From positions 1 to 64,000 of the forward strand of contig JAFSTC010000048.1 in NCBI GenBank assembly GCA_017450705.1: a DNA stretch of 64,000 bases. The letters run 5' to 3'. This document shows, one piece after another, positions 8,318-30,107 of this stretch (the first letter of the stretch is position 1; every line of letters begins with the position of its first letter). A program made the translations under genes and the position numbers. Origin of the DNA: Lentisphaeria bacterium. GTDB lineage: Bacteria; Verrucomicrobiota; Lentisphaeria; Victivallales; Victivallaceae. Below the pieces are notes generated by a model. That model searched no databases. It had not been told where the DNA came from and worked only from the letters and a program-made list of their open reading frames with translations.

Positions 8318-11185
8318 TTATTCTTCAGCTTGTTCAAGGTCGCTTTCTTCTGTGCTTTCGGATTCGGTTTCCTTCGTCTGACCGTTCAAAATTCCAGTCA
8401 TCATTCGCGCGATTTTTTTCTGCCTGCGCTGCGTCGGAGTGTCAGCGATTTCAAAAATTTCCATGATCTTCCGGGCAGTCGTTTCCACTCTTTTCCGCTC
8501 AAGTTCTTCCTGCTGGGAGAGGATCGTTTTAACCTGCCGCACGTCTATCCCGAAATAGTCGGCCAAAATCTGCTGATTGAAAGCCTTGGACTTCGACGCC
8601 TGATACAGGGCTGCGTTACGTTCCTGCGTCGTGATCTCTTTTCCCTGTGCCTTTGAGCTTGTGCGAACCCATTTGAATACCGGATCGCCCTGTGCGTTTT
8701 TTTCGGTTTTCAGCATTATGTTGAACGGAATCTTGAATTCGGAGGGTATATTGCGTCCCTTTTCCACCTGGACGTTGATGGCGACTCCGCGCCTGGTGTT
8801 TTCTCCGAGTGCGTGCTGAAGCCTGATCACGTTGTCCACCGTGATCGTCTTCGCTCCTGACCCCCTCTGCTGTTCCCCGCTTTTTCCCGCATGGTGAATC
8901 AGGAGAATGGCGCAGTTATGAGCCGCCAGATCTTTCAGCCAGGAAAATATATTTTGCCATGATTTCGTCGTCTCTGCGAAATTGGTGAGGGTGGAAAGAT
9001 TGTCGAGGATCAAAAGTTTGGCATCCTCGGCTTGCACCCACTTTGTGATTTGCTCTCTTTGCGACTCGTGGCTGCTGAGATCCCACCCCTTCCCTTCGAG
9101 TAATTTATATTGGAAGCGAATTGATTTTTCCAGGCCAGGACATTGAGTTTTATAAAAATCGGCAAAGCTGCACAGCCGCTCCCGGAAATTACTTTCCGAC
9201 ATTTCTCCGTCGATATACAACACGGAGACGGGCTCCTTCGATTCCCATGCATGGGGGAACGAGTCGCCGAACACCTTGGTCCCGGAACTTGCGGCCAGTG
9301 CTATTGACATCGCGACCAGCGTTTTTCCAAGCCCTTCCTGGCTGTAGAGCAACGTGATGGTGTGCTCTTCGATAATCGGGAAGACCACATATTTGCTGTT
9401 GGACCGGGGGCGTTTGGTATCGGTAAAATCAAAAGAGCTGAGTTCCGCGTTTCTACGTCGCCTGACGCTGACTTCTTCCGTTTCCCGATTCAATGCGATG
9501 TGATCTTTTTCCGCAAGACCGTGGAATTCCTCCTCGCATATTGTCCTGAAGCCATCATTCTCACGCGTCACAAAACCGAGCCTGATATCTTCCTGCATCA
9601 GGCGGGACTCGAGCGTCAATCCGAGTTCGATCTGCTCCGGAGAGGTGTCGGGCAGGAAAAGGTAAACATTCCGTCCCCTTAAACCGGCCCATGCGACATC
9701 CTGCACAGAATCCAGTCCACCATACCAACTGCTGACAACGAGTTGCGAATTTCTTTCTTCCAGTTTCCTGCACCGTTGTTCCAGCTCGGCGATTTCCTGA
9801 TGGTCCTGCGCCTTTTTTTGCCCGACGAACTCCACGATCGCCTCGTAGCACGTACGGAAATTTTCAACAAAGAACAGAGGGTTTATTGCCTTGTTGACCG
9901 TGGAATTATTCTTTTTTTTGCGCACGTTTTCAATCACTTCCATCTCTGTCCGTGCATAACCAATGTTGCAATCGAAAAAAGCGCTGTCCCAAAATCCGGG
10001 TGAATTGAAAGCACCGGGATCACTGAACAATTCCCTTGCTGTATACATATTCCGTGCAGAACCAAAAATTTTCCCGAAGTTCTGCTGTATCATTTCCTTT
10101 TGATGATCATACAACTTCGAAGTCCCTTCGGAAATCTTACCGTGGACGTATGCCTCCACCTCCCTTGTAAAGTCGTTTTCTCCGTTATGGAACGTGTACA
10201 AACGCGATTCCCTTGCCCGTATCAAACTGATTTTGTCATGAATCTGCGTGATCGTGTCTTCGGAAAATTGATCTATGCGATGAGCCGCCAAAGGAGAAGT
10301 CAGCAAAAGAACCGGCGCATTGGGGTGAGCTTTGATTTGATTCAGATTCCACAATGGAGATGGTGCGGGGAACGGTATATTCAGGGCCTTTGGCGGTGTT
10401 TCCGGTCTTTTGCTCCAGTAGGTCAGAGGGCCTATTTCCCGGTCTTCCAGATAAGCGACTCTCCCCAGAAGAAGGTCATTCTCATAAAAATCGACGTATT
10501 CGTATCCGCTCAGCTCTCCCGGGTACATCGGTGCCTTGGTCAGTCTTCGGTACAACCAGCGGCGCTCCCGGTCAACGGCAATGTCCTCGCAAATTCCTTC
10601 GGGGATGTGGAACATATCGCACAGCAAGTCCACGGCAAGTTCACGATCCGAGAGGTGCTCCTGGATCATGTATAAACTTATGAGATCAACATCCGAGGCT
10701 TCAGCCGCGGAAATGTCCGTCCGGAAAATATCGCCGGGAGAGGCATCATGTTTGCCGACGACATTGGAAATCCCTTTCAGCGCAAGTGTCAGGACCGGAA
10801 GCAACCCGCTGGCGGATTTCCAATCTATTCCCAACTTTACCGCTTCGGTCATCATCGCAATCTCTGGCATGTCCGCCAATCGAAGACAATGTTCCGCGGC
10901 ATCGACAACCCCGCGCACATCCTTCAAATTGACGGTCTCCTTGTGACGGACCGGCCTTTTGGCAATCTTGAAATTGTCAAACACATAGTACGGTCCCTCG
11001 GTCTTGGCCTGCGGGAGCCATTTGATGAACTCGACGGAGCCGATTGTCGTCAGGAGCTTGAGATAAAGTTTGGACTCTCTGATTTTTTTCCTGACCTCTT
11101 CGGGGCATCTGACATGGAAAGGGACCATCGCGTCGGCGACATTGAGCGATGACAGCAACTCAAGATTCAAGCTTTGTTCTTCCAT
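8318..11185 (-). CDS. RepA/DnaB-like (KaiC-fold) helicase with long N-terminal domain
   Basis: Encodes 955 residues, with GGAGG before the ATG. The first 600 residues show no domain I recognise; they may be a primase-like or recruitment region. From about residue 610 there is a RecA-fold ATPase of the AAA_25 / RSF1010 RepA type: Walker A QEGLGKT, LYIDGEMSE, Walker B LLILDNLSTL, then LLIHHAGKSGEQQRGSG. The C-terminus is basic with a possible winged helix and an acidic end. Such proteins are hexameric plasmid or phage replicative helicases. With the replication protein at 6992 it would form the replication module. Confidence 0.78.
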   Translation of the reverse strand: MEEQSLNLELLSSLNVADAMVPFHVRCPEEVRKKIRESKLYLKLLTTIGSVEFIKWLPQAKTEGPYYVFDNFKIAKRPVRHKETVNLKDVRGVVDAAEHCLRLADMPEIAMMTEAVKLGIDWKSASGLLPVLTLALKGISNVVGKHDASPGDIFRTDISAAEASDVDLISLYMIQEHLSDRELAVDLLCDMFHIPEGICEDIAVDRERRWLYRRLTKAPMYPGELSGYEYVDFYENDLLLGRVAYLEDREIGPLTYWSKRPETPPKALNIPFPAPSPLWNLNQIKAHPNAPVLLLTSPLAAHRIDQFSEDTITQIHDKISLIRARESRLYTFHNGENDFTREVEAYVHGKISEGTSKLYDHQKEMIQQNFGKIFGSARNMYTARELFSDPGAFNSPGFWDSAFFDCNIGYARTEMEVIENVRKKKNNSTVNKAINPLFFVENFRTCYEAIVEFVGQKKAQDHQEIAELEQRCRKLEERNSQLVVSSWYGGLDSVQDVAWAGLRGRNVYLFLPDTSPEQIELGLTLESRLMQEDIRLGFVTRENDGFRTICEEEFHGLAEKDHIALNRETEEVSVRRRRNAELSSFDFTDTKRPRSNSKYVVFPIIEEHTITLLYSQEGLGKTLVAMSIALAASSGTKVFGDSFPHAWESKEPVSVLYIDGEMSESNFRERLCSFADFYKTQCPGLEKSIRFQYKLLEGKGWDLSSHESQREQITKWVQAEDAKLLILDNLSTLTNFAETTKSWQNIFSWLKDLAAHNCAILLIHHAGKSGEQQRGSGAKTITVDNVIRLQHALGENTRRGVAINVQVEKGRNIPSEFKIPFNIMLKTEKNAQGDPVFKWVRTSSKAQGKEITTQERNAALYQASKSKAFNQQILADYFGIDVRQVKTILSQQEELERKRVETTARKIMEIFEIADTPTQRRQKKIARMMTGILNGQTKETESESTEESDLEQAEE

Positions 11186-12210: not shown

Positions 12211-13572
12211 TTATGCCAATCGATGCACAATTTCCTCTTTTTGCTCGCTGGACAATACCTCTTCCAAGCACGCCACCAGCACGGGAAGTTTGGTCGCAGG
12301 AAGCCCGGAGATCAGCGCCGCAAACGGAGCGGTCTGTCCATCGGTTTTTTCGTATTGCGGCAAGGGAAGGCTGGCGATGACCTTCCGTTTGGATTCCAGC
12401 GAATAGTGCGTGTAATGTTCGGTCATGCTCTCGTTGGTATGCCCGACAATCGAACGGATCACCGCCAAATCGTTGCCCGCATTGGCGGCCAGCGAGCAGA
12501 ATGTGTGCCGAAAACTGTGGAACGAATAACGCCCTATATGCCGCATGCACCGTTCTCCCCGGGGGTTGGTGTAGACCTGGCGTCGGATCCCGTTGTCGGC
12601 TGTCTCCTTGGTCTGAATCCCGGATGCTTCCAAAAGTTTCGAGATATCCTGAGAGATGCCGGAGCTGTTTGTCCGATAGCGTGCGGCGACGTTGGGCAGC
12701 AGGTATTCGTCGCGCTTCCACTTTTTCGCCAGAGCAAACTCTTCCTGCAGGATCGGCGGGATCGGCAGTATCAGCTCGTGATGCAGACAACGTCGGGTCT
12801 TTGCGGGCTTGAAACGCACGGCGCCATCTTCGATGTAACTCCACTGAAAACAGGCGGCATCATGGAGACGCAACCCGAATGCGAGTCCGAGCAGCATCAT
12901 GATCCGCATTTCCGGTTTATAGAGCATGTAGTATTCCGGCTCGTCGAGTTTTTGGAAGATTGCCGTTATCTGCGCGGGAGTGAAAGGCTTGCGCCCCTCG
13001 GTCTCGGCCTGTTTGGCTTTCAGGCTCCGGAAGGGGGAATTGTCTTTGGTACAGGTCTTGAAGATCAGCTTCAAGGCCTGCAGGTGTTTGTTGTAAGTGC
13101 GTGCTGAGATGCCTTGCTGCCAGCAACCGAACATATAATTTGCCGCGACCTCTTCGGAGAGGTCGGCAAGTGACATGATCTGATGATCCCGGCAATACTT
13201 CAGGAAGAGCTCGAAAATGGAATGGTAGCTTTGCAGCGTCACCGCTCCGCTGTCCGGTCGATTGGGCTGATTGAGGTAAAACTCCCAGAGGTGCGGCAAG
13301 TCTACCGTCAGCTGAACGATCAACTGCTTCTCCTTAGCGACTTTGTCCATGTACTCGACTCGGGAATCGATCTGCCGGATGCGCGTAATATCCTGAAAGA
13401 TCTTTTCCGCCGCTGTCTCCGCCTCTTCCCTGACGGTTATGGGATTTCCCTCCGCGTCAACAAGTGTTATTGTTTTCTTGTGTCCGTTGCTTCCCGGGAA
13501 CTGATAAACATAGCGTCCGTTGGCACGTTTGAACACAGTCCCGAAACCTTTCGCCCGATGCGATTTTTTCAT
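12211..13572 (-). CDS. int: Tyrosine-family site-specific integrase
   Basis: Encodes 453 residues. The N-terminus has a small basic arm-binding-like domain (FGTVFKRANGRYVYQFP), followed by a helical core-binding domain and the catalytic domain. Visible catalytic residues are Arg in GLAFGLRLHD, Lys in KPAKTRR, HSFRHTF, GHTNESM and the nucleophile Tyr in EHYTHYS. The ribosome site is weak, so expression may be low. The gene start lies only 78 bases from a tRNA-Phe 3' fragment, the expected layout of an integrase next to its own attachment site. Confidence 0.92.
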   Translation of the reverse strand: MKKSHRAKGFGTVFKRANGRYVYQFPGSNGHKKTITLVDAEGNPITVREEAETAAEKIFQDITRIRQIDSRVEYMDKVAKEKQLIVQLTVDLPHLWEFYLNQPNRPDSGAVTLQSYHSIFELFLKYCRDHQIMSLADLSEEVAANYMFGCWQQGISARTYNKHLQALKLIFKTCTKDNSPFRSLKAKQAETEGRKPFTPAQITAIFQKLDEPEYYMLYKPEMRIMMLLGLAFGLRLHDAACFQWSYIEDGAVRFKPAKTRRCLHHELILPIPPILQEEFALAKKWKRDEYLLPNVAARYRTNSSGISQDISKLLEASGIQTKETADNGIRRQVYTNPRGERCMRHIGRYSFHSFRHTFCSLAANAGNDLAVIRSIVGHTNESMTEHYTHYSLESKRKVIASLPLPQYEKTDGQTAPFAALISGLPATKLPVLVACLEEVLSSEQKEEIVHRLA

Positions 13573-13620: not shown

Positions 13621-13649
13621 TTGTCGATTTTCTCCTCAAAACAGGCGTA

Positions 13650-13694
13650 CTGAAAATCCCCGTGTCCCCAGTTCGATTCTGGGTCCGGCCACCA
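13650..13694 (+). other. Right attachment site: 3' half of tRNA-Phe
   Basis: Reads from the anticodon loop (CTGAAAA, anticodon GAA) through the 3' anticodon stem (TCCCC), a 5-base variable loop, a perfect T-arm (CCCAG, TTCGATT, CTGGG), the acceptor strand TCCGGCC and ACCA. No matching 5' half lies upstream: the expected GGCCGGA and D-arm are absent. This is the classic footprint of a tyrosine integrase that crosses over in the tRNA anticodon loop. The reconstituted tRNA-Phe should lie at the element's left end, outside the window. Confidence 0.85.
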
Positions 13695-13896
13695 TTTTTT
13701 TGCCCTGGTGGGCAAAAAAACACGAAGCCGCAAGGCTTCACTTCACTGTGCGAAGCACAACTTCACTCAAAAGCCGCAGGCTTTTCTTCACATTTTCACC
13801 ATTCCCGGAAGCCTTGCTTGTGAAGACGCTCCCTCCGTTCGCTTGTGAAGGCGCTCGCTGCGCTCACTTGTGAAGTTTGCTCGCTTTGCGAGTAAG
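13695..13896 (+). repeat. Multi-hairpin array, copy A (CTTCAC/GTGAAG spacers)
   Basis: Opens with a perfect 11-bp inverted repeat (13695-13705 with 13710-13720). Then come hairpins GAAGCC-GCAA-GGCTTC (13724), TGTGC-GAA-GCACA (13747) and AAAAGCC-GCA-GGCTTTT (13769), each followed by CTTCAC. The second half uses GTGAAG, the reverse complement of that spacer, before further hairpins, and ends in CTCGC-TTT-GCGAGTAAGGAT. Array B at 18927 has the same plan. The opening stem could also act as a terminator for the tRNA. Confidence 0.8.
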
Positions 13897-14083
13897 GATC
13901 GTGTCGAATGGATTCTCCGTTTGAGCTCAACACCGGAGATTTTCTCCCGCGAAAATCCGCGAAATTCTCCGTTTGGCGAATTCCGGGGACACGAGAATTT
14001 CGAGGTGAACGGAGCAAAATCCGCGTGTCTCCGTTCCCGAAACAGAGAAAAAATGCCGCCCCATTTATTACCGAATCAGAGAA

Positions 14084-14109
14084 TGCCCGTGTCCCCGGTT
14101 CGGTTCTGA
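14084..14109 (+). repeat. Partial tRNA-Phe-like sequence
   Basis: About 22 of 26 bases match the tRNA-Phe fragment from the anticodon stem through the T-loop at 13656-13681, then diverge. No CCA end or 5' half is present. It may be an older, decayed attachment site or a copied tRNA end. Confidence 0.4.
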
Positions 14110-14144
14110 CGAAAAAAATCGTCGCCACCGTCTCGGTGATTCAG

Positions 14145-14160
14145 AAATGCACGTGCATTT
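14145..14160. promoter_or_regulatory. Perfect 16-bp palindrome upstream of the nuclease-helicase promoter
   Basis: AAATGCAC followed by GTGCATTT. It ends 23 bases before the predicted -35 box, a suitable place for an activator or repressor dimer. Confidence 0.5.
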
Positions 14161-14183
14161 GTCATTTTTCGCATCGGGCGACC

Positions 14184-14212
14184 TTGAAAAAGCATTCCGC
14201 GCGGGATATAGT
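14184..14212 (+). promoter_or_regulatory. Predicted sigma-70 promoter of the GIY-YIG/DUF2075 operon
   Basis: TTGAAA (14184-14189) and TATAGT (14207-14212), spaced exactly 17 bases. A start near 14219 would give a leader of about 38 bases to the ATG at 14257. Confidence 0.7.
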
Positions 14213-14256
14213 ACGGCATTGTTATTTGCGTTAAATGGTTTTACGTGAGGATCGAT

Positions 14257-15123
14257 ATGAAACGCGGCAGGACGATTTCACTGTTTTTGCTTGACGGTTC
14301 GGTGACGGGGGCTATCAAATACACTTTGCCGAACTGGACCGGCGTCATCTATAAAATACCCCGTACTGCACTCGGAAGTTGCAAAAACCGTGAGCACTTG
14401 CAGCAGAGCGGCGTGTATTTCCTTTTCGGCAAGACCGAAGAGCGCAACGAGAATGTCGTTTATATCGGGCAGGCGGGGATCCGCAAGAACGGAAACGGCT
14501 TGCTGGGGAGGATCCTTGAGCATGCCCGCAATCCGGAAAAGGATTACTGGACCGAAGTGGTCGCCATCACCACCACCAATAATTCGTTCGGGCCGACCGA
14601 AATAAGCTATTTGGAAAATCAATTCACCAAATTGGCGACCGAAGCGAAGCGGTATATCGTCAAAAACGGCAACGATCCCAACCCCGGCAACATCACTGAG
14701 GAAAAGGAGAGCGAACTGGAAGAGTTCATCGAATATTCCAAAATCGTCATGGGGATCCTCGGCCACAAAGTTTTCGTTCCGCTGGATGAAATCACCGAAG
14801 ATACGCCGCGCGAGAATGTCGTCCGGCTTCATCTGAAAGAGCGCGGCGCAGACGCGACGGGGTATCGCACCAGTGAGGGGATCATTGTCTGCAAAGGCAG
14901 CAAGATCAAAGCAACTCCCGATTCCAGTTGTCCGGAATGGGCCAAGAAACTGCGCAACCAGAACAGCGCTTACATCGACAAGAAATTTGTCCTTACCAAG
15001 GACATTGCTTTCGACAGTCCTTCCGCCGCGGCTGGTTTTTGTGTATTCGGTTCGGCAAACGGGCGAATCGCTTGGAAAGACGAGTCCGGCAAGACCTTGA
15101 AGGAGCTCGACACGGAAGTCTGA
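14257..15123 (+). CDS. GIY-YIG nuclease with C-terminal DUF4357
   Basis: Encodes 288 residues. The ATG at 14257 follows GAGGA. GVYFLFG (52-58) and VVYIGQAG (67-74) form the GIY-YIG signature, Arg85 and Glu120 (ISYLENQF) supply the rest of a single-metal nuclease site. Residues about 215-270 (TSEGIIVCKGSKI to GFCVFGSANG) look like DUF4357, a domain often attached to restriction-type nucleases. The gene ends in a one-base overlap with a DUF2075 helicase gene. The pair sits in an island of different composition, so an anti-phage role is likely but unproven. Confidence 0.82.
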   Translation: MKRGRTISLFLLDGSVTGAIKYTLPNWTGVIYKIPRTALGSCKNREHLQQSGVYFLFGKTEERNENVVYIGQAGIRKNGNGLLGRILEHARNPEKDYWTEVVAITTTNNSFGPTEISYLENQFTKLATEAKRYIVKNGNDPNPGNITEEKESELEEFIEYSKIVMGILGHKVFVPLDEITEDTPRENVVRLHLKERGADATGYRTSEGIIVCKGSKIKATPDSSCPEWAKKLRNQNSAYIDKKFVLTKDIAFDSPSAAAGFCVFGSANGRIAWKDESGKTLKELDTEV

Positions 15124-17231
15124 TGGACCGATTCTATTATCAAAACAGTATTGCCGGATTTCTTGCCGACTCCGAGGACGCCGTTCTCGGGGCGCTGGCG
15201 AGAAACAATACGTTTGATTTGGTCGATCTGCAGCGCAATGCGTGGCTCTATGAGATCCGGTTTCTGAAAGATTTGCTGCGGGCGGAGTCTGCCGGGCAGA
15301 TCGTCTTCGAATACTCTATCCCCCGTTTGGGCAAGCGCATCGACGTAGTTTTGCTGCTGCATGGCATCGTCTTTGTCCTTGAGTTCAAAGTTGGTGCAGA
15401 CGGATACTTGCGTCAGGACTTGGAACAGGTATGGGATTACGCGCTCGACCTGAAAAATTTCCACGAGGCCAGCCGCGATTTGACCATCGTCCCGATTTTG
15501 GTCGCCACCGATGCGGAGAGTGCTTCAGTCAAAAAAGAGGTCTCCCGCTATGACGATCGGGTCTTCGAGCCGATTTCCGCCAATGCGGAGGCGTTGCCAG
15601 AGATCATCCGGCAATTTACAAAAGAATACGCCTGCGATGCCGATTTGAGCCGCTGGGTGTTCAGCCGCTATATGCCGACGCCAACGATCATTCAGGCGGC
15701 AAGCTCGCTTTATCTCAATCACTCGGTCGCCGACATCACCAAAACGGAGGCTGCCGGCGAAAATTTGCAGCGGACGAGCGAGTTCGTGATGAATGTCATC
15801 GAACACTCGCGCACCAATCGCGAAAAGTCGATCTGCTTTGTTACCGGTGTGCCCGGCGCGGGGAAGACCTTGGTCGGCTTGAATATCGCGGTCCGGCAGT
15901 TCGAAAAGAAAGATTTGGCGGTCTATCTCTCCGGAAATCAGCCGCTCGTTGCGGTTTTAAGTGAAGCGTTGGCGCGAGACAAAAAACGGCAAGAGGAAGA
16001 ACGCGATCCGAACAAGCGTTACAACTTGACCGATGCGCGGCGAGAGGTGAAATCCTTTATCCAGATCGTCCACCATTATCGCGACACCACGTTGGACAAG
16101 CTCAAAAAGCCAATCCTAAACGGCATTTTGGAAATTGATCCGGCGAAAGTTGACAGACACAAGAACGATGGTTATTCGGAAGTCGAGCATGTGGCGATTT
16201 TCGACGAAGCCCAGCGCGCGTGGACTCAAGAGCATTTGGCGAACTGGCTGAACCGCAAAAAAGGTTTTGCCGACTTCCCCATGTCCGAGCCGGAGTTTTT
16301 GATCTGGTCGCTGAACTTGCGCGAAGACTGGGCGGTTATCGTCTGTCTGGTCGGCGGCGGTCAGGAGATCAACACAGGTGAAGCGGGGATCAGCGAGTGG
16401 TTGCGGGCGATCAACGCGAGCTTCCCGGACTGGAATGTGTTTATCTCGGACGAACTGACGGGCAAAGAATATGCCGAGGGCGAACTGGAAGGACTGTTGC
16501 AAGCCAACAGTCACGTGGAGAGGAGTTCCGAATTGCATTTAGCGGTCTCCATGCGTTCCTTCCGTGCGGAGCAGCTTTCCAACTTCGTGCACCACTTACT
16601 GGAGGGCAATGTCCCCGAGGCGCAGCGGCTGCTTGCGACTTTGAAGGGGAAATATCCTATCGTACTGACCCGTGACCTCGATGCGGCAAAGAACTGGCTG
16701 CGGAAACAGGCGCGAGGCACGGAACGTTACGGCATGGTGGTTTCTTCGCAAGCGCAGCGTCTGCGCCCGCTCGCAATCGATGTCCGCTGCAAACCAGATA
16801 CGGTGCATTGGTTTTTGGATGATATTACCGACATCCGCTCCTCTCAGTTCCTAGAAGACGCGGCATCAGAGTTCGATGTGCAGGGCTTGGAGCTTGACTG
16901 GACCTGTCTGGTTTGGGACGGCGACCTGCGCTGGAACAACGGTGCATGGCAAAACTTCTCCTTCACCGGCAACCGCTGGATGAACATCCGCGCCGAAGAA
17001 CGTAAGGCATATCAAATCAACGCCTACCGAGTCCTGCTGACCCGTGCCCGCCAAGGCATGGTGATCTGCGTCCCCGAGGGAAATCCCGAAGACACCACCC
17101 GTCTTCCCGCCTTCTACGATGGTACATATAACTATCTCGGGCAAATCGGCATTGAAGAAATCGGAGGAAAAAGTGCCATGTGTAACACTGCAATAAATCT
17201 ATCAACGAATTTGCCCATTAGCTTTATATGA
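15123..17231 (+). CDS. DUF2075 (Schlafen-like) helicase with N-terminal PD-(D/E)XK-like nuclease
   Basis: Encodes 702 residues; the start overlaps the previous stop (TGATG). Residues 60-100 hold GKRIDVVLLLHG then FVLEFKVG, a D...ExK nuclease-like core. The SF1 helicase-like part has Walker A GVPGAGKT (242-249), Walker B AIFDEAQRAW and the C-terminal YRVLLTRARQGMVI motif. DUF2075 proteins are related to the helicase part of Schlafen proteins. With the GIY-YIG partner this gives two nucleases and one motor, a composition typical of phage-defence operons. I do not recognise the exact pair as a named system. Confidence 0.82.
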   Translation: MDRFYYQNSIAGFLADSEDAVLGALARNNTFDLVDLQRNAWLYEIRFLKDLLRAESAGQIVFEYSIPRLGKRIDVVLLLHGIVFVLEFKVGADGYLRQDLEQVWDYALDLKNFHEASRDLTIVPILVATDAESASVKKEVSRYDDRVFEPISANAEALPEIIRQFTKEYACDADLSRWVFSRYMPTPTIIQAASSLYLNHSVADITKTEAAGENLQRTSEFVMNVIEHSRTNREKSICFVTGVPGAGKTLVGLNIAVRQFEKKDLAVYLSGNQPLVAVLSEALARDKKRQEEERDPNKRYNLTDARREVKSFIQIVHHYRDTTLDKLKKPILNGILEIDPAKVDRHKNDGYSEVEHVAIFDEAQRAWTQEHLANWLNRKKGFADFPMSEPEFLIWSLNLREDWAVIVCLVGGGQEINTGEAGISEWLRAINASFPDWNVFISDELTGKEYAEGELEGLLQANSHVERSSELHLAVSMRSFRAEQLSNFVHHLLEGNVPEAQRLLATLKGKYPIVLTRDLDAAKNWLRKQARGTERYGMVVSSQAQRLRPLAIDVRCKPDTVHWFLDDITDIRSSQFLEDAASEFDVQGLELDWTCLVWDGDLRWNNGAWQNFSFTGNRWMNIRAEERKAYQINAYRVLLTRARQGMVICVPEGNPEDTTRLPAFYDGTYNYLGQIGIEEIGGKSAMCNTAINLSTNLPISFI

Positions 17232-17296
17232 AAACTATCCACCTGCTGAAAGAATCATTTTTGAGTCCAATATCAACTCCGTGAAAAGGAAAAATT

Positions 17297-17863
17297 ATGG
17301 CAAAGAAGAAAAATAAGTTTAAAGAAAAAATAAAAAAGGAATTTGAGTATTATTGCTCTATCAAAGAATCAGAGAAAAGGCTCACAGCCCGTACAATCCG
17401 TGTTTTTAATCGTGGGAACCATAGGGGATGCGAATCTGGGTGCGTTGATTTAGAAGCAGAAAAATTTAATCTAACATTGGAGGTTGAACGCAATTGCAAT
17501 TCAGCAAAAGATTTTAAGTTTAAAATATTCAACCATACTTTTATGGATGAACCGTGTTATCGCTTTGATTCAGATGGTGACGGTCATTTAAACAAAGGAG
17601 ATATATATTTGCCAGAGAAATTCGTTGAAACTCCTCATTTTCACAAGTATGACAAAAATGGCGACCTAATTGCATACAAAACAGATGATTGGATAACTGA
17701 CAAGGATAAACTTTTATCTGATCAGTGCGCGGCATTGGCATCTTTTGCCAATGAGGAAAATATTGTTTATGATGAATTGCCCAATATCTGTAATGAAGGT
17801 GAACTGTTTCCACCAGAAAATAAAATGCATGATCCATTAGAAGGAGAAGATTTCAATGAATGA
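17297..17863 (+). CDS. AT-rich hypothetical protein, first of a coupled pair
   Basis: Encodes 188 residues. AAAAGGA lies 8 to 9 bases before the ATG. The protein has a Lys-rich N-terminus, a middle with RVFNRGNHRGCESGC, and a Cys/His/Asp-rich section (CYRFDSDGDGHLNKGD, then HFHKYDKNGD) that could bind metal. The DSDGDGH and DKNGD stretches recall EF-hand-like loops but lack the full pattern. The gene is far richer in A+T than its neighbours and overlaps the next gene by 8 bases. It resembles the small partners found with DUF1828-type proteins. Function unknown. Confidence 0.65.
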   Translation: MAKKKNKFKEKIKKEFEYYCSIKESEKRLTARTIRVFNRGNHRGCESGCVDLEAEKFNLTLEVERNCNSAKDFKFKIFNHTFMDEPCYRFDSDGDGHLNKGDIYLPEKFVETPHFHKYDKNGDLIAYKTDDWITDKDKLLSDQCAALASFANEENIVYDELPNICNEGELFPPENKMHDPLEGEDFNE

Positions 17864-18716
17864 GATAATAACAAATATAACGCATCTCTTTCAAGATATA
17901 AAATGTGATTTTAATTTTCTCTGGAATTTTAAATTGCGGGGGAATACTGTTGAGATCATAACTCCATTTTCTACTCTGGCAAGAAATACGCTTTCTGTGT
18001 TTATCACGCAAAGAGAAAACCGTTTTATCGTATCAGATGGCAGACGTCTTTTTGATAATATTGAAGAAAATAATTTTGAAATAAATAGACGAAATGCTGT
18101 TTATTTAGATGAAATAGCATCGATTTATGAAGTAAAGAAGACAACGGAAAATCATCTTTACTTTAAAAGTACTGATAATATAAAACTAATCAGCTCATAT
18201 ATTTATGATATTGTTTTTTTTCAAAAAGCCGTGTTTGATAATATTTTTGCTGACGAGATGTTTTTTTTATCTGAGGTACAAGATGGTTGGTTTTCAACCC
18301 GGATGAACAATTTGTTATCAAAAAAGATTGATGAAAATAAAAAACATAACAGGTTGTTTTCTGTTCCCAAAGGGCATCCGCTTATGAAAGTGGCTGGGTT
18401 CAACACTGTTTTACAGTATCAGGGCTGTGCAACACTTTGGGCGGCTATGTACATTACAGGCTCAACTCAAGGAGTATATGCGGATCATATCTGCCGTGCC
18501 AATACTGGTTTTATGTATGTAAAGAACGAAACGACATTGAATTGTCAGGTTAAGCTCGCGGCAATATTTGATGAAGATGCAAAAGGCAATGATTCGCAAT
18601 ATGAGCGTATAAAATTTGCTAAAAGTGTCATGAATAATTCTTTTTCATTTTCGCGTTATACATATTTGGATTTCAACGCTATTGATGATCTTTCAAAATT
18701 ATATGAGTCTGCATAA
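17856..18716 (+). CDS. DUF1828-like protein, second of a coupled pair
   Basis: Encodes 286 residues, with the start inside the previous gene. Residues 1-95 contain VEIITPFSTLARNTLSVFI, then RFIVSDGRRLFDNI, the pattern of DUF1828: two strands followed by an Ile-x-Asp-Gly loop. The remainder is aromatic-rich, with WFSTRMNNLLSKK and a Lys-rich helix, and no catalytic signature. Low GC and different codon use mark this pair as recently acquired. Such two-gene units often travel in defence islands or as toxin-antitoxin-like pairs. That link is inference. Confidence 0.6.
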   Translation: MNEIITNITHLFQDIKCDFNFLWNFKLRGNTVEIITPFSTLARNTLSVFITQRENRFIVSDGRRLFDNIEENNFEINRRNAVYLDEIASIYEVKKTTENHLYFKSTDNIKLISSYIYDIVFFQKAVFDNIFADEMFFLSEVQDGWFSTRMNNLLSKKIDENKKHNRLFSVPKGHPLMKVAGFNTVLQYQGCATLWAAMYITGSTQGVYADHICRANTGFMYVKNETTLNCQVKLAAIFDEDAKGNDSQYERIKFAKSVMNNSFSFSRYTYLDFNAIDDLSKLYESA

Positions 18717-18926
18717 TGTTTCCACATTGATTTAGCCGACGAATTCCTGTGATGTTTTTGCCGTAGCAATATGGTGTATCCTTGTGTTTCCGGAGAAAGC
18801 GGAGAATGCGGTTTGGGGTGGGGAGCAAATTCTACGTTTTTGTCCTTGTGTTATCGGAGAATGTTTGCTTGTCAAAGAGTTGCAAAAGGTGAGGCCGGTT
18901 CGGATTTGGCGTTTATTGCGCCACCA

Positions 18927-19136
18927 TTTTTTTGCCCTGACGGGCAAAAAACATGAAGCCTGAAAAGGCTTCGCTTCATGGCACGCAGTGCCGCTTCATG
19001 CGGCGCCAGCCGCGCTTCATACGCCGTCCGGCGTGCTTCATTTCGCCTTTTCAGATGAAGCATTGCTCTGCATTCGCTCCGCAATATGAAGCAACTCCGC
19101 TTCGCTTCGTTATGAAGCGCTCGCTTCGCGAGTAGG
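18927..19136 (+). repeat. Multi-hairpin array, copy B (GCTTCAT/ATGAAGC spacers)
   Basis: Opens with an inverted repeat of 10 to 11 bp (18927-18937 with 18942-18951). It continues with GAAGCC-TGAAAA-GGCTTC (18955), GGCAC-GCA-GTGCC (18980), GCGGC-GCCA-GCCGC (19000) and ACGCC-GTCC-GGCGT (19021), each followed by GCTTCAT. The second half has three ATGAAGC spacers (19055, 19086, 19112) separating further stems, and ends in CTCGC-TTC-GCGAGTAGGGAT. Arm sequences differ from array A, yet pairing and order are kept. Confidence 0.85.
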
Positions 19137-19179
19137 GATGGTGTTGCCGTTTACAGCGCGGCTTCACCGCTTAGAAGGG

Positions 19180-19205
19180 CACGAAGCCGCAAGGCTTTGC
19201 TTCCT
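19180..19205 (+). repeat. Fragment of a third hairpin array
   Basis: CACGAAGCCGCAAGGCTT here is identical to the start of the first GAAGCC hairpin in array A, then diverges. It lies 44 bases after array B ends. Confidence 0.55.
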
Positions 19206-19299
19206 TGTCCGCCGCAGCCTTGGCGAAGGTGGATGAAGCTTTCCCGCTCCGCGAGTGCGGGCACATGACGCTGCACCCGTTCCGGCGGGGAAGGCGTGA

Positions 19300-21672
19300 T
19301 CACTTCGGGTATTTTTTGAAACCCCACATCCGCCGCACGACCGGATCGCCGGGCAGACCGGTCTGCAGGATTTGGTCGCGGATGACGATCTTCCGTTCGT
19401 CCGGAGCGGTGTTGTAATCGCGTCCGAGGCGGATCAGCGGGAGCCGCAGACGCTTGACCTCATTGCAGAAAGCTTCCATTTTCGGCCCGGAGTCCTGCTC
19501 GTCGGCGAGGAAAATGGCGATCGCTTTCACCAGGACCGTCTGCCGGGCGAGATCGTACTTGGCATGGGTCAGGTCCCATACGAGCTTGTCGCGGAAAGCC
19601 TGCACTTCGGCGGTGCGTTCGTACAGCCGTTCGAAAGCGCCCGCACGCAGCCACTCGAGCCCCTTCTGCTCGGCGAACAGGCGGAAGGTGCGGATCTCCG
19701 AAAGAAGCCTGCGGAAGCGGACGATCTCCGGCGTGAACTTGAATTCCGAGTAGATCGTCGGATCGTAGGGAGCGGGCAGCGCGTAGATGAATTCGAAGAA
19801 TCCTTCGATCCCGAGGAGCCGGTCATACTCTCCCGAGGGGGCGGTCCGCAGACGGAAGGGCATGGGCCGGTCCAGCGAGTCGCAGGCCAGGACTTTTTTC
19901 ATGACCTCGCGATCGCCGAAGACCCGCACATACGCCGGCAGGGCGGAGCCGGCATCGAATCCGGACTGTTTCAGCTGGCGGATCAGCGGGGCCAGATTGT
20001 CGGCCGTCGCCAGGACGGCGTCGAATGTCCGCTCCTGCTGCCGGCGCAGGGTGGCGATATGGGCGTTCACACTGCACTGCTCCAGCGACGGGAGATCCAG
20101 TTTGATTTTTTTCAGTGACGCGAAATCGAGGCCGCGGAGCAGAACGATGGCCCGGGCGGTCTCCTTCGCGGTGCGCTGCAGCATGGAAAGCGGGACCACG
20201 CACGTTTCGATCCGGATCCGGATGTTCGGTTCGGCGTCCCGTTTCAGCTTTTCCAGATCCTCGAGCACGGCCGTCAGCTCGTCCGGTCCGGATCCGAGCC
20301 GGGCCAGTATCGCGTCGAGTTTCTCCAGATATTTCAGGTTCGTCTCGATCTGCCGCCGCAGCGCCGCGGCCTCGGTCAGCAGCTTCGCCATGAAGGCCGG
20401 AGCCGGGGAGGGGAAAAGCCGTTCCGCCTCGAAGATGACCGCCGTCGACCGCTTCAGCCCGGCGATGTCCTCCCGGTTGCTGTCGTCGCGCATCGCCGTC
20501 TCGGCCCGGAGAAACGCATCCAGGAGCTTCTTGACGGCGAATGCCTCCTTGCGCATGGCCGGAGCCGTGGTGTCGTTCCAGCCCCAGATGTTGGGGTCGG
20601 CGTCGGTGATCATGCCGAGGATGCGCGCGGCCTCGATCCAGTTGCCCGCGCCCAGCGCCGATTTGGCCAGAAGCCAGTTTTTGCGGACGTTTTCCCAAAG
20701 GGTCATGGAGCGCTCCAGTTCGTGATACGCGACCTCGTTGTCTTTGGCGCCGCGCCGGGTCCGGGACTCCCGCAAAAGCTCCCGGGCCCGCGTGAAATTT
20801 TCCGCCGCCGCCTCGGAACGGGCGCTTTCAAGACAGCTGTCGGAAGAGGATTCGACCCCCAGCCACACCCAGTTGAGCGCCAGAGCGATGAAGATCGTCA
20901 CCGCGATGATGCCCAGACTGGACCAGATGCGGATCTGCGCGTGTTCGGTCCGGCCGTCCGCGAATTTGAAGTCGACGAAGGCGATGCTCACCACGTCGTT
21001 GTCCGCCAGCAGACGCTCGGTCGAGGGCAGGAGCCGGGTCCCGTTGACGAAAGTCCCGTTCCTGCTGCCGAGATCCCGGAGCCAGCAGCCGTCGGCCTTG
21101 GTGGTGAATTCGGCATGCTTCTGGGAGACCAGCTGGTTGTCGACGGCGATGTCGCACCCCGGAGCGGAACCGGCGGTCATCTTCGCCCGTACAAGGGGCA
21201 CCGACTGGCCTTTGCGGTCGGTGTTGAGGTAAAAGAGGCGGTGCTGCGCGGTCTGCACGCGTTTTACCCGTTCGACGAAAAGCGTGCAGTTCCCGATGGA
21301 GATCTGATCGTTCGGCGCGAGGATCTTTTCCCGGATCTGTTTCGATTTGCAGAATATCCCGTTGCGGCTGTTCGTGTCGCGCAGACAGAGCCGTCCGCCG
21401 CGCATCATGATCACCGCATGGTGTCCGCTGGCGACGCTGTCTTCCTTCGGGATCACCCAGGTGCATTCGGAACTGCGTCCGATGGTGATGGCCTCCGCGG
21501 CGGAAAAATCGGCCTGTTCATACAGCACTCTGCCGCTGAATTCCAGACGCAGGTTCAACTGTTCCGGGGCCTTTCTGCGCCAGGGCAGCCATCCTCCCCG
21601 CCGGTCTGCCGGGAGGCCGGCGGGACCGGATCTTTCTCCGGCGGCCCCGCCGGCGGGTCTCTCTGAATCCAT
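19300..21672 (-). CDS. Membrane protein with two FHA domains and large C-terminal region (copy 1)
   Basis: Encodes 790 residues, with GGAGAG before the ATG. FHA domain 1 spans about residues 45-133 (TIGRSSECTWVIP, SGHH, NSRNGIF). FHA 2 spans about 150-235 (GSAPGCDIAV, SQKHAEF, LGSRNGTFVNG). One membrane segment (254-272) follows, then about 500 helical residues with coiled-coil character. FHA domains bind phosphothreonine, so this is a likely reader of the Ser/Thr kinases in the same locus. It is paralogous over its length to the protein at 27774-30107; both end in GLPGDPVVRRMWGFK. It is the last gene of the pilus locus. Confidence 0.85.
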   Translation of the reverse strand: MDSERPAGGAAGERSGPAGLPADRRGGWLPWRRKAPEQLNLRLEFSGRVLYEQADFSAAEAITIGRSSECTWVIPKEDSVASGHHAVIMMRGGRLCLRDTNSRNGIFCKSKQIREKILAPNDQISIGNCTLFVERVKRVQTAQHRLFYLNTDRKGQSVPLVRAKMTAGSAPGCDIAVDNQLVSQKHAEFTTKADGCWLRDLGSRNGTFVNGTRLLPSTERLLADNDVVSIAFVDFKFADGRTEHAQIRIWSSLGIIAVTIFIALALNWVWLGVESSSDSCLESARSEAAAENFTRARELLRESRTRRGAKDNEVAYHELERSMTLWENVRKNWLLAKSALGAGNWIEAARILGMITDADPNIWGWNDTTAPAMRKEAFAVKKLLDAFLRAETAMRDDSNREDIAGLKRSTAVIFEAERLFPSPAPAFMAKLLTEAAALRRQIETNLKYLEKLDAILARLGSGPDELTAVLEDLEKLKRDAEPNIRIRIETCVVPLSMLQRTAKETARAIVLLRGLDFASLKKIKLDLPSLEQCSVNAHIATLRRQQERTFDAVLATADNLAPLIRQLKQSGFDAGSALPAYVRVFGDREVMKKVLACDSLDRPMPFRLRTAPSGEYDRLLGIEGFFEFIYALPAPYDPTIYSEFKFTPEIVRFRRLLSEIRTFRLFAEQKGLEWLRAGAFERLYERTAEVQAFRDKLVWDLTHAKYDLARQTVLVKAIAIFLADEQDSGPKMEAFCNEVKRLRLPLIRLGRDYNTAPDERKIVIRDQILQTGLPGDPVVRRMWGFKKYPK

Positions 21673-27773: not shown

Positions 27774-30107
27774 CTACCTCGAATATTGTTTGAAACCCCA
27801 CATGCGCCGCACCACCGGATCGCCGGGAAGCCCCTGACTCAGGATCGAATCCCGGATCACGATCTTTTTTTCGTCCGGCGCCGTGTTGTACTCCCGTCCC
27901 AGTTTGATGAGAGGCATGCGCAGCTGTTTGAATTCGCGGGCGAATTCTTCCAGCCGTCCGTCGCCGACCTGTTCCCCGCGCAGGAATATCTCCATGGCCA
28001 GCGCCAGGACCCGCTGACGCTTCTGCGCGTATTTTCCCGAAGCGAATCCCTTCGCCAGATCGTCCCGCAGTTCGAGGATCGTCCCCGTGCGCTCGTACAG
28101 CCGTTCGAAAGCGCCCGCGCGCAGGGCGTCGTGGCCCTTCCGGTCCGCGAAGGTCCTGAAGGTGCGGATCGCCGACAGCAGATCCCGGAACTTCACGATC
28201 TCGGGACGGAAACGGCTCTCCCCGTACACCGACCGGTCGTAGGGCGCCGGAAGAGCGTAGATGTATTCGAAGAATCCCTCTATGCCCAGGAGCCTGTCGT
28301 ATTCGCCCGCCGGCTGTTCCCGCAGACGGGAGGGCATCCGGTGCTCCAGAACGTCGCAGTCAAAGACCTTTTTCATCACGGCTTCATCCTTGAAGACCCG
28401 TACGAAATCGGGCAGGCCGGGGTCCTCCGTCAGGCCGTTTTCGCGGAGACTCCGGATCAGGGGCTTCAGATTGGCCGCCGTCGCCAGCAGGATCTCGAAG
28501 CTGCGTTCCCTGTTTTTGCGCAGCGTGGCGATGTGCGCGTCGACGGCGCACTGTTCGAGCGAGGGCAGTTCCAGCCGGATCGCCTCCAGCCCGGCAAAGT
28601 CCAGCGCCTGCAGCAGAAGAAGGCCGCGTTTCACCTCTTTGCCGGAGCGCTGAAGCATGCCCAGCGGCGTCATGCATTTCTCGATCCGGAGCCGGATGGC
28701 GCTGTCCGCATTCTGCTTCAGCTCCTCCAGATCCCGCAGGACGAGAGCCAGATTTTCGGACTCCGGACCGATCCTGGCGAGGATCTCGGCCAGCTTGTCG
28801 AGACAACTCAGGTTCCGGTCGATCTGCCGGCGCATCGTGCCCGCGGCTTCCAGCAGTTTTTTCACGTAGGCGGGAGGGGCGGTCTTGAAGAAGCGCTCCA
28901 TGCCGCGGATGTTCTCCGCCGCCTTTCTCAGATCGGCGGCGTTCTCCTGATTCCTGTCGTCGGCGAGGGCGGTCTCGGCCAGCAGGAAGGCGTCCAGCAG
29001 TTTTTTTGCGGCGAAGGCCTCCTTGCGCATTTCCGGAGCGGCGGTGGTGTTCCAGCCCCACAGGTTCGGATCCGCTTCGGTGATCATGCCCAGGATGTGC
29101 GAGGCGCCCACCCAGTCGCCCGAGTCCAGGGCGTTTCTGGCTTTGGCCCAGTTGGAGAAGACCTTTTCCCACACGGCGATGGATTGTTCCAGTTCGCTGC
29201 AGGCGATCTGGCTGTTCTCCGCCCCGCGGCGGGTCCGGGACTCCTGCAGAAGTTCGCGGGCCCTGCCGAACCGGGTCGCCGCGGCCTCCTGTCTGGCCTG
29301 CTCCAAGCAGATCTCCGAGGAGCTTTTCACGCCCAGCAGCAGCCAGTTCAGCGCCAGCACGATGAAGATCGTCACCGCCACCACGCCCAGACTGTACCAG
29401 ATGCGTATTTTGGAGTGCTCCATGCGGCCGTCCACGAATTTGAAATCCACGAAGGAGATGCTGATCACGTCGTCGTCCGCCAGAAGACGTTCGGTGTTGG
29501 AGCCCAGTTTCGTCCCGTTGACGAACGTGCCGTTCTTGCTCCCCAGATCACGGAGCCAGCACCCGTCGGCCTTGATGGCAAACTCCGCATGCTTCTGGGA
29601 GACGAGCTGTTCGCCGATGAGCAGATCGCACCCCGGTGCGGAACCCGCGATCATCCGCGGCTTGTTCAGGGGGACGGCTTCCCCTTTTCTGGCCGTGTTC
29701 AGGTAGACGACTTCGTGGAGGACCGCCGTGGAACGCCTGACCTGTTCCACGAAAAGGGTGCAGTTGCCGATGGCGATCTGGTCGCCGGGAGCCAGGTTTT
29801 TTTCCTGTATCCGCTTCGACCTGTAAAAAATGCCGTTGCTGCTCCCCGTGTCGCGCAGGCAGAAACGGCCCTTGCGCATCAGGATCACCGCATGGTGTCC
29901 GCTGGCGACGCTGTCCTCATGGGGGATCACCCAGGTGCAGTCGGAACTGCGGCCGATGGTGATGGTTTCCGAGGGCAGCAGCTCGGGCGTCTCGTACAGG
30001 ACTCTGCCGTTGAATTCCAGCCGCAGAGCCAGACGTTCCGCTTTCTTTTTCCACCATGTTCCCCGCCGGGCCGGCGGGGCGGGGGGCTGCCCGGCCGTTA
30101 CTCCCAT
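27774..30107 (-). CDS. Membrane protein with two FHA domains and large C-terminal region (copy 2)
   Basis: Encodes 777 residues. The start at 30107 has GGAGGA just before it and overlaps the end of the upstream FHA gene by 10 bases. Layout equals that of the protein at 19300-21672: FHA 1 (TIGRSSDCTWVIP, GSSNGIF), FHA 2 (LRDLGSKNGTFVNG), one membrane helix (IFIVLALNWLLLGV), then a long helical region ending GLPGDPVVRRMWGFK. FHA 1 may not bind phosphothreonine the same way, as its loop is GSSNG. It is a reader for the locus phosphorylation system. It lies next to the phosphatase gene. Confidence 0.85.
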   Translation of the reverse strand: MGVTAGQPPAPPARRGTWWKKKAERLALRLEFNGRVLYETPELLPSETITIGRSSDCTWVIPHEDSVASGHHAVILMRKGRFCLRDTGSSNGIFYRSKRIQEKNLAPGDQIAIGNCTLFVEQVRRSTAVLHEVVYLNTARKGEAVPLNKPRMIAGSAPGCDLLIGEQLVSQKHAEFAIKADGCWLRDLGSKNGTFVNGTKLGSNTERLLADDDVISISFVDFKFVDGRMEHSKIRIWYSLGVVAVTIFIVLALNWLLLGVKSSSEICLEQARQEAAATRFGRARELLQESRTRRGAENSQIACSELEQSIAVWEKVFSNWAKARNALDSGDWVGASHILGMITEADPNLWGWNTTAAPEMRKEAFAAKKLLDAFLLAETALADDRNQENAADLRKAAENIRGMERFFKTAPPAYVKKLLEAAGTMRRQIDRNLSCLDKLAEILARIGPESENLALVLRDLEELKQNADSAIRLRIEKCMTPLGMLQRSGKEVKRGLLLLQALDFAGLEAIRLELPSLEQCAVDAHIATLRKNRERSFEILLATAANLKPLIRSLRENGLTEDPGLPDFVRVFKDEAVMKKVFDCDVLEHRMPSRLREQPAGEYDRLLGIEGFFEYIYALPAPYDRSVYGESRFRPEIVKFRDLLSAIRTFRTFADRKGHDALRAGAFERLYERTGTILELRDDLAKGFASGKYAQKRQRVLALAMEIFLRGEQVGDGRLEEFAREFKQLRMPLIKLGREYNTAPDEKKIVIRDSILSQGLPGDPVVRRMWGFKQYSR

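Follow-up and report, generated by a model that had tools for sequence, protein, structure and literature searches.

Arrays of hairpins and repeated words behind tRNA genes of Lentisphaeria: probable copies of a mobile element with a PF05635 (23S_rRNA_IVP) partner protein

In the intervening sequence (IVS) of the Coxiella 23S rRNA gene, GACAGAT heptamers are located just before the S23p ORF, and their number varies between strains (PMC4990558). Proteins of this family, PF05635 (23S_rRNA_IVP), were called without known function in that study of 2016, and one solved relative, from Xanthomonas, is a toroidal homopentamer (PMC4990558); the family is also homologous to Avd of diversity-generating retroelements (PMC10053308). 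Here two arrays, A and B, from a Lentisphaeria genome are described, which are probably non-autonomous or relic copies of a mobile element of tRNA 3' ends whose heptamers are read by an IVP protein. A literature search, with subscription journals largely outside its range, found nothing specific on this element.

The window, i.e., the whole stretch of DNA analyzed, comprises 64,000 nucleotides (Lentisphaeria bacterium, assembly GCA_017450705.1, contig JAFSTC010000048.1, positions 1 to 64,000). A first-pass annotation had placed array A at 13695-13896 and array B at 18927-19136; both are present there and are related to each other. They follow the common plan which it had described: a T7GCCC/GGGCA opening stem, a GAAGCC/GGCTTC hairpin, hairpins separated by a word, a switch to the reverse complement of that word, CTCGC/GCGAG and GAGTARGGAT. 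The word is CTTCAC/GTGAAG in array A and a heptamer, GCTTCAT/ATGAAGC, in array B. The 3' end of array B had been set too short by about 40-50 conserved bases. The features in and around the arrays are as follows:

13649..13700, forward strand: tRNA-Phe 3' half with T-run, matching the complete tRNA-Phe of another contig (C116:42190-42241) at all 52 bases
13695..13720, forward strand: opening stem of array A, TTTTTTTGCCC-TGGT-GGGCAAAAAAA (sequence and fold)
13721..13899, forward strand: array A, A-type, hairpins separated by CTTCAC, then by GTGAAG, with the end CTCGC/GCGAG-TAAGGAT
14077..14108, forward strand: degenerate second tRNA-Phe fragment 3' of array A (87% over 14079-14108)
18870..18926, forward strand: probable degenerate tRNA 3' half ending GCGCCACCA (weak alignment; CCACCATTTTTTTGCCC is common to A)
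18927..18951, forward strand: opening stem of array B, TTTTTTTGCCC-TGAC-GGGCAAAAAA (sequence and fold)
18953..19136, forward strand: array B, B-type, hairpins with the heptamer GCTTCAT/ATGAAGC and a mid segment, CGCCTTTTCAG, which is complementary to hairpin 1
19137..19175, forward strand: conserved 3' extension of array B, GATGGTGTTGCC...GCGCGGC..CCGCTT (alignment)
19180..19211, forward strand: start of a further A-type array, truncated (84% to array A)

Each array of the window starts at a tRNA 3' end, that of array B being a probable degenerate tRNA, since GCGCCACCA-T7 follows there on a poor, weakly tRNA-like remnant. Predicted folds reached -77.7 kcal/mol for array A (z -4.2 against dinucleotide shuffles) and -97.1 kcal/mol for array B (z -5.5). 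A scan of the window with Rfam 15 brought only two tRNAs over the gathering score and no family match for the arrays, and a known RNA family was therefore rejected.

Further copies in the same genome, obtained by BLAST with both arrays and from tRNA 3' flanks, are located behind tRNA-Ala(CGC), tRNA-Ser(GCT), tRNA-Val(TAC), tRNA-Pro or tRNA fragments; relatives of array A were found by BLAST on C21 and C19 of this genome and at tRNA-Ser loci of the genus. Copies of the B-type are present in 21 of the 34 genomes of the genus, with up to 12 per genome. When 84,980 species genomes were scanned with a gapped pattern, a method which leans to canonical copies, 79 matches were obtained, 78 of them in gut MAGs of Lentisphaeria and the PVC group; the lone match in an Acidobacteria MAG (L183) had no tRNA nearby and looks like chance. 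Of the 79, 58 immediately follow a complete tRNA or tmRNA gene, always on its strand and in most cases at a distance of 22-47 bases; for at least 15 others, reading of the sequence showed a tRNA tail of CCA and T-run in front. Many different tRNAs serve as targets. Pattern, BLAST and family searches together yielded over a hundred copies, most of them of 200-700 bp and without an integrase seen beside them. In a Kiritimatiellae MAG (RGIG990, L128) a B-type array is found directly behind the tmRNA gene, whose 3' end resembles that of a tRNA.

The genomes compared are mostly MAGs, and among them no clean pair of an empty and a filled site with both flanks conserved was found; insertion is thus inferred from the distribution of copies. 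The search for empty sites which the first-pass annotation had recommended returned, with conserved downstream flanks, only matches from element to element and no empty site. For array B the neighboring FHA gene was of no use, as its homologues were mostly distant paralogues. IMG/VR contained neither a match to the array pattern nor a relative of the B-type protein, and a phage element was rejected; two "phage" records with homologues proved to be unannotated fecal scaffolds.

Other repeats are located at tRNA 3' flanks as well. A second type of short element (about 150-215 bp) occurs behind tRNA-Pro, tRNA-Gln(CTG) and, in tandem, tRNA-Leu(TAG), each unit ending in a duplicate of the local tRNA tail (L026/C36, L045/C94, L072/C39, L074/C76, L146). 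A third type, in the same genome as the window, begins right after the CCA of tRNA-Met, tRNA-Leu(TAA) and tRNA-Thr(CGT) (L036, L047, L018) with a palindrome such as TTACTTTTCTTCTCCCGGTGAGAAGAAAAGTAA; behind tRNA-Met the copies are in tandem.

The covariation which had been read from arrays A and B alone holds across 52 distinct complete B-type relatives. Their anatomy consists of the opening stem, hairpin 1, usually three strong hairpins separated by GCTTCAT, the mid segment, and weaker hairpins separated by ATGAAGC. The outer stems of first-half modules average 5.0 bp, compared with 0.63 in shuffled modules. Hairpin 1 is complementary to the mid segment and covaries with it; their longest complement is 8.3 within an element and 5.0 between elements with different first hairpins. 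Hairpin modules vary from copy to copy and are shuffled between them: 48 different orders were counted in the 52 elements, with modules from a shared pool, and it follows that modules recombine. In all 13 cases in which the opening stem extends into the tRNA (permutation 8e-5), where CA, GA or CG precedes CCA, its right arm complements the local tail exactly; this match was left by copying or pairing at the target. Pairing is kept, as had been claimed, either by the selection on structure then invoked or by a copying process.

Alignment of the loci downstream exposed a shared ORF beyond the array, which matches PF05635 (E 2e-24; 86.3 bits, curated cut-off 33.8) and TIGR02436, four-helix bundle protein (E 9e-27; 93.4 bits, cut-off 24); the closest solved chain is 2rld (E 8e-28). 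Full-length relatives are composed of the tRNA, the opening stem, the heptamer/hairpin array (about 200 nt), a promoter and the PF05635 ORF. When the genus was searched for PF05635 independently of arrays, mostly loci with an array, and often with a tRNA upstream, were recovered. The A-type arrays, mostly behind tRNA-Ser, go with one protein subfamily and the B-type arrays with another; on the protein tree the A-type rows form one group with 1 change (0 of 500 shuffles were as low), the branch support being only 54/75. An intact recognizable ORF is present in 10 of the 34 arrays with enough downstream sequence; behind the rest are ORFs with deletions, different genes or nothing. No PF05635 gene adjoins array A or B, and the only strong one in the source genome is located elsewhere, without such an array. 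In several loci (L099 from 1503, L190, L132, L163) the ORF is internally deleted, or its first residues, MEKSSNKL, are fused to an unrelated frame, as if cargo had been swapped at the ORF start.

Of 289 sampled genomes of the phylum, 221 encode PF05635 proteins, which are present in many others as well. In other collections, the nearest homologues of the protein are encoded behind arrays of the same plan but different heptamer words, on unrelated gut contigs; in two of these, tRNA sequence precedes the array. Such cases outside the genus are few and come partly from unannotated scaffolds. In one fecal scaffold (L301) a tRNA-Arg is followed by GTGATAT words and hairpins switching to ATATCAC and then by the ORF; L304 has a tRNA tail and ATTATTC words, and L303 has GTGAAAT switching to ATTTCAC. 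Over the 30 best-scoring PF05635 matches of the phylum, the 130 bases before the genes showed periodicity at 7, 14 and 21 (lag 7: 0.367, shuffled 0.269, z 12.8). No tRNA was found near these 30 loci, though heptamers are present, and thus the tRNA link is limited to certain lineages. Degenerate tandem heptamers with no tRNA near are widespread before PF05635/four-helix-bundle genes (the phylum-wide loci L247-L276, and L297, L298, L302), AGCTTGG being one such word. On plasmids, long tandem heptamers precede the ORF in Bernardetia (TTAGTGA, about 14 times) and Treponema (many GRTGAAA-like words). Since heptamers precede the gene in gut contigs, on plasmids, across the phylum and in the Coxiella IVS, they look like a general partner of the protein family, with the hairpins and the tRNA address as special developments.

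RNA structures under selection tolerate G-U pairs. In the array stems 642 Watson-Crick, 3 G-U (G-T) and 6 A-C pairs were counted, versus 751 Watson-Crick, 34 G-U and 2 A-C pairs in the acceptor stems of the tRNAs at these loci (34 of 798 pairs counted as G-U; Fisher 1e-6). The near-absence of G-U pairs from the arrays and their presence in tRNA stems of the same genomes favor pairing at the DNA level over the RNA level; the scarcity could partly reflect young, related copies. A structured RNA, which had been one of three guesses on the nature of the arrays, is for this reason rather unlikely. It would be transcribed as a tRNA 3' trailer or small RNA, would fold, and would act in tRNA maturation or as template or guide of the element, with the opening stem cut by RNase III as in rRNA IVSs. 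Its merits are the constant co-direction of array and tRNA, fold energies far under those of shuffles, compensatory changes in the stems and the precedent of rRNA IVSs encoding this protein family, which RNase III removes after transcription (PMC4990558). However, the stems contain as many A-C as G-U pairs, unlike the tRNAs, some opening stems would take the CCA end of the tRNA itself into the pairing, and Rfam offered no family. A promoter-like sequence belonging to the ORF follows the array (TTGCAA-N17-TATATT as read from the alignment), which also disfavors a structured RNA.

The first-pass annotation had regarded the arrays as the two ends of a 5-kb accessory island of foreign composition. 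Low GC was indeed found, but it spans about 3.3-18.9 kb and is not a self-contained 5-kb block; array A lies within this larger island and array B near its right edge. On the GC profile and the positions at tRNA 3' ends, the arrays were rejected as island ends; what they mark are tRNA 3' ends, where they occur alone, in tandem or with varied cargo. The genes next to array A and between the arrays are:

12211..13572, reverse strand: tyrosine recombinase of the phage-integrase family, belonging to the larger island (PF00589, E 1.3e-16), ending beside the tRNA-Phe fragment
14245..15123, forward strand: cargo, candidate defence protein PDC-S14 (DUF4357)
14928..17231, forward strand: cargo, Schlafen-group-3 helicase, PDC-S41
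17297..17863, forward strand: cargo ORF without family
17856..18716, forward strand: cargo ORF with a weak PDC-M24B match (7.5e-7)

The segment of 3.3-13.7 kb contains the integrase and the tRNA-Phe fragment, the complete tRNA-Phe being on another contig; a second end was not found within the window. A 955-aa protein with an AAA_25/KaiC-like ATPase domain (8318-11185, reverse strand) is also encoded inside the island. Two FHA-type proteins with 63% identity are encoded close together on the reverse strand (19300-21672 and 27780-30098); elsewhere in the genus, most of their homologues are distant. Behind array A, PDC-S14 and PDC-S41 make up a candidate defence pair. Homologues of each were found singly in two other species, directly 3' of a complete tRNA-Phe and B-type array for PDC-S14 (L124) and 3' of the same combination for PDC-S41 (L175); the tRNA-Phe site is thus a point of exchange. 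At tRNA-Ser(TGA), three genomes have a common upstream gene and three unrelated downstream regions, two of them with different arrays.

Transfer RNA 3' ends are classic integrase targets. The arrays could accordingly be arm-type or accessory sites of tyrosine-recombinase islands which use these ends, with no life of their own, and the adjoining of integrase gene, 52-bp tRNA-Phe fragment and array A would agree with this, as would the duplication of the tRNA tail by other short elements here. Yet in the stretches read directly behind arrays no integrase was present, no tRNA-tail duplication was read at their distal end, and the array type tracks the IVP subfamily; such a role is unlikely. The second of the three guesses, a folded single strand of DNA acting like attC, may still apply, but the window integrase scored far under the cut-offs of XerC and integron-integrase models (38 bits against 265 for the integron integrase).

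Palindromic, multicopy and intergenic arrays might also be REP/REPIN-like sequences whose mover is a Y1 (RAYT) transposase. Alternatively, they might be a retroelement that depends on a reverse transcriptase and has an Avd-like helper, given the homology of PF05635 to Avd (PMC10053308). Both are very unlikely, since Y1 transposases were found in only 11 and reverse transcriptases in only 8 of the 34 genomes of the genus, and the array-rich genomes G017 and G012 as well as the source genome have neither, with the qualification that these MAGs are incomplete. Either enzyme as an obligatory mover was rejected on the same grounds. Ordinary intergenic clutter, i.e., terminators and random palindromes gathering behind tRNA genes, would suit the variable tRNA 3' flanks with their several repeat types, but is refuted by the tRNA/tmRNA linkage (58 of 79 copies) and Watson-Crick stems far over shuffles, and is hardly tenable beside common modules, a fixed plan across many species and a fixed ORF family.

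For a mobile element with an IVP protein, to which a self-mobile palindromic element, the remaining guess, had come nearest, the following working can be proposed. The element would insert at the 3' end of a tRNA gene, just beyond its CCA and native T-run and in the same orientation as the gene. The IVP protein would bind the repeated heptamer words and the array would be extruded as hairpins in the DNA, so that first-half words may pair with second-half words in a ladder of four-way junctions. This nucleoprotein could tag the element, which would then be joined to tRNA 3' ends, possibly by a tyrosine recombinase or by host repair; it could also let arrays exchange modules and cargo, here the candidate defence module. 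A wider and quite tentative idea is that of a transposase-less class over several phyla, in which a pentamer of four-helix bundles would read a heptamer array and guide the element to 3' ends of structural RNA genes; rRNA IVSs, plain four-helix-bundle genes with heptamer repeats and tRNA arrays would then perhaps form a single family that moves in a new way.

With heptamer arrays as a likely DNA partner of PF05635 proteins, tRNA 3' ends as a target and arrays matched to proteins in pairs, binding and mobility become directly testable. The origin of rRNA intervening sequences may find an explanation, and tRNA 3' flanks are indicated as places where candidate defence genes are exchanged.

Among known systems, diversity-generating retroelements differ in that no linked reverse transcriptase was found here. 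With REP, BIME and REPIN sequences the arrays share multicopy intergenic palindromes and a partner gene family; here, however, the partner is PF05635 and not a Y1 transposase, the target is the tRNA 3' end and the modular array is much longer. Like integron attC sites they are modular arrays of multi-hairpin DNA which could act as a folded single strand, but they have no linked integron integrase, keep a fixed plan with one heptamer per family and are tied to tRNA genes. Genomic islands integrating at tRNA genes have the same target and a cargo which likewise includes candidate defence genes, in contrast to the small size of most copies here and the lack of an adjoining integrase. By the curated cut-offs, the ORF of full-length relatives is a member of the four-helix-bundle family (PF05635/TIGR02436). 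In comparison with the 23S rRNA IVSs of Leptospira and Coxiella, the arrays are 3' of tRNA or tmRNA genes and not inside an rRNA gene, the heptamers are interspersed with hairpins and change over to their reverse complement, a genome has many copies, and the ORF has its own promoter-like sequence; as in those IVSs, the element is small and adjoins a structural RNA gene, PF05635 (S23p/IVP) is encoded in full-length relatives, the ends form a stem, the ORF is often decayed, and heptamers are found directly before it, as GACAGAT is in Coxiella (PMC4990558).
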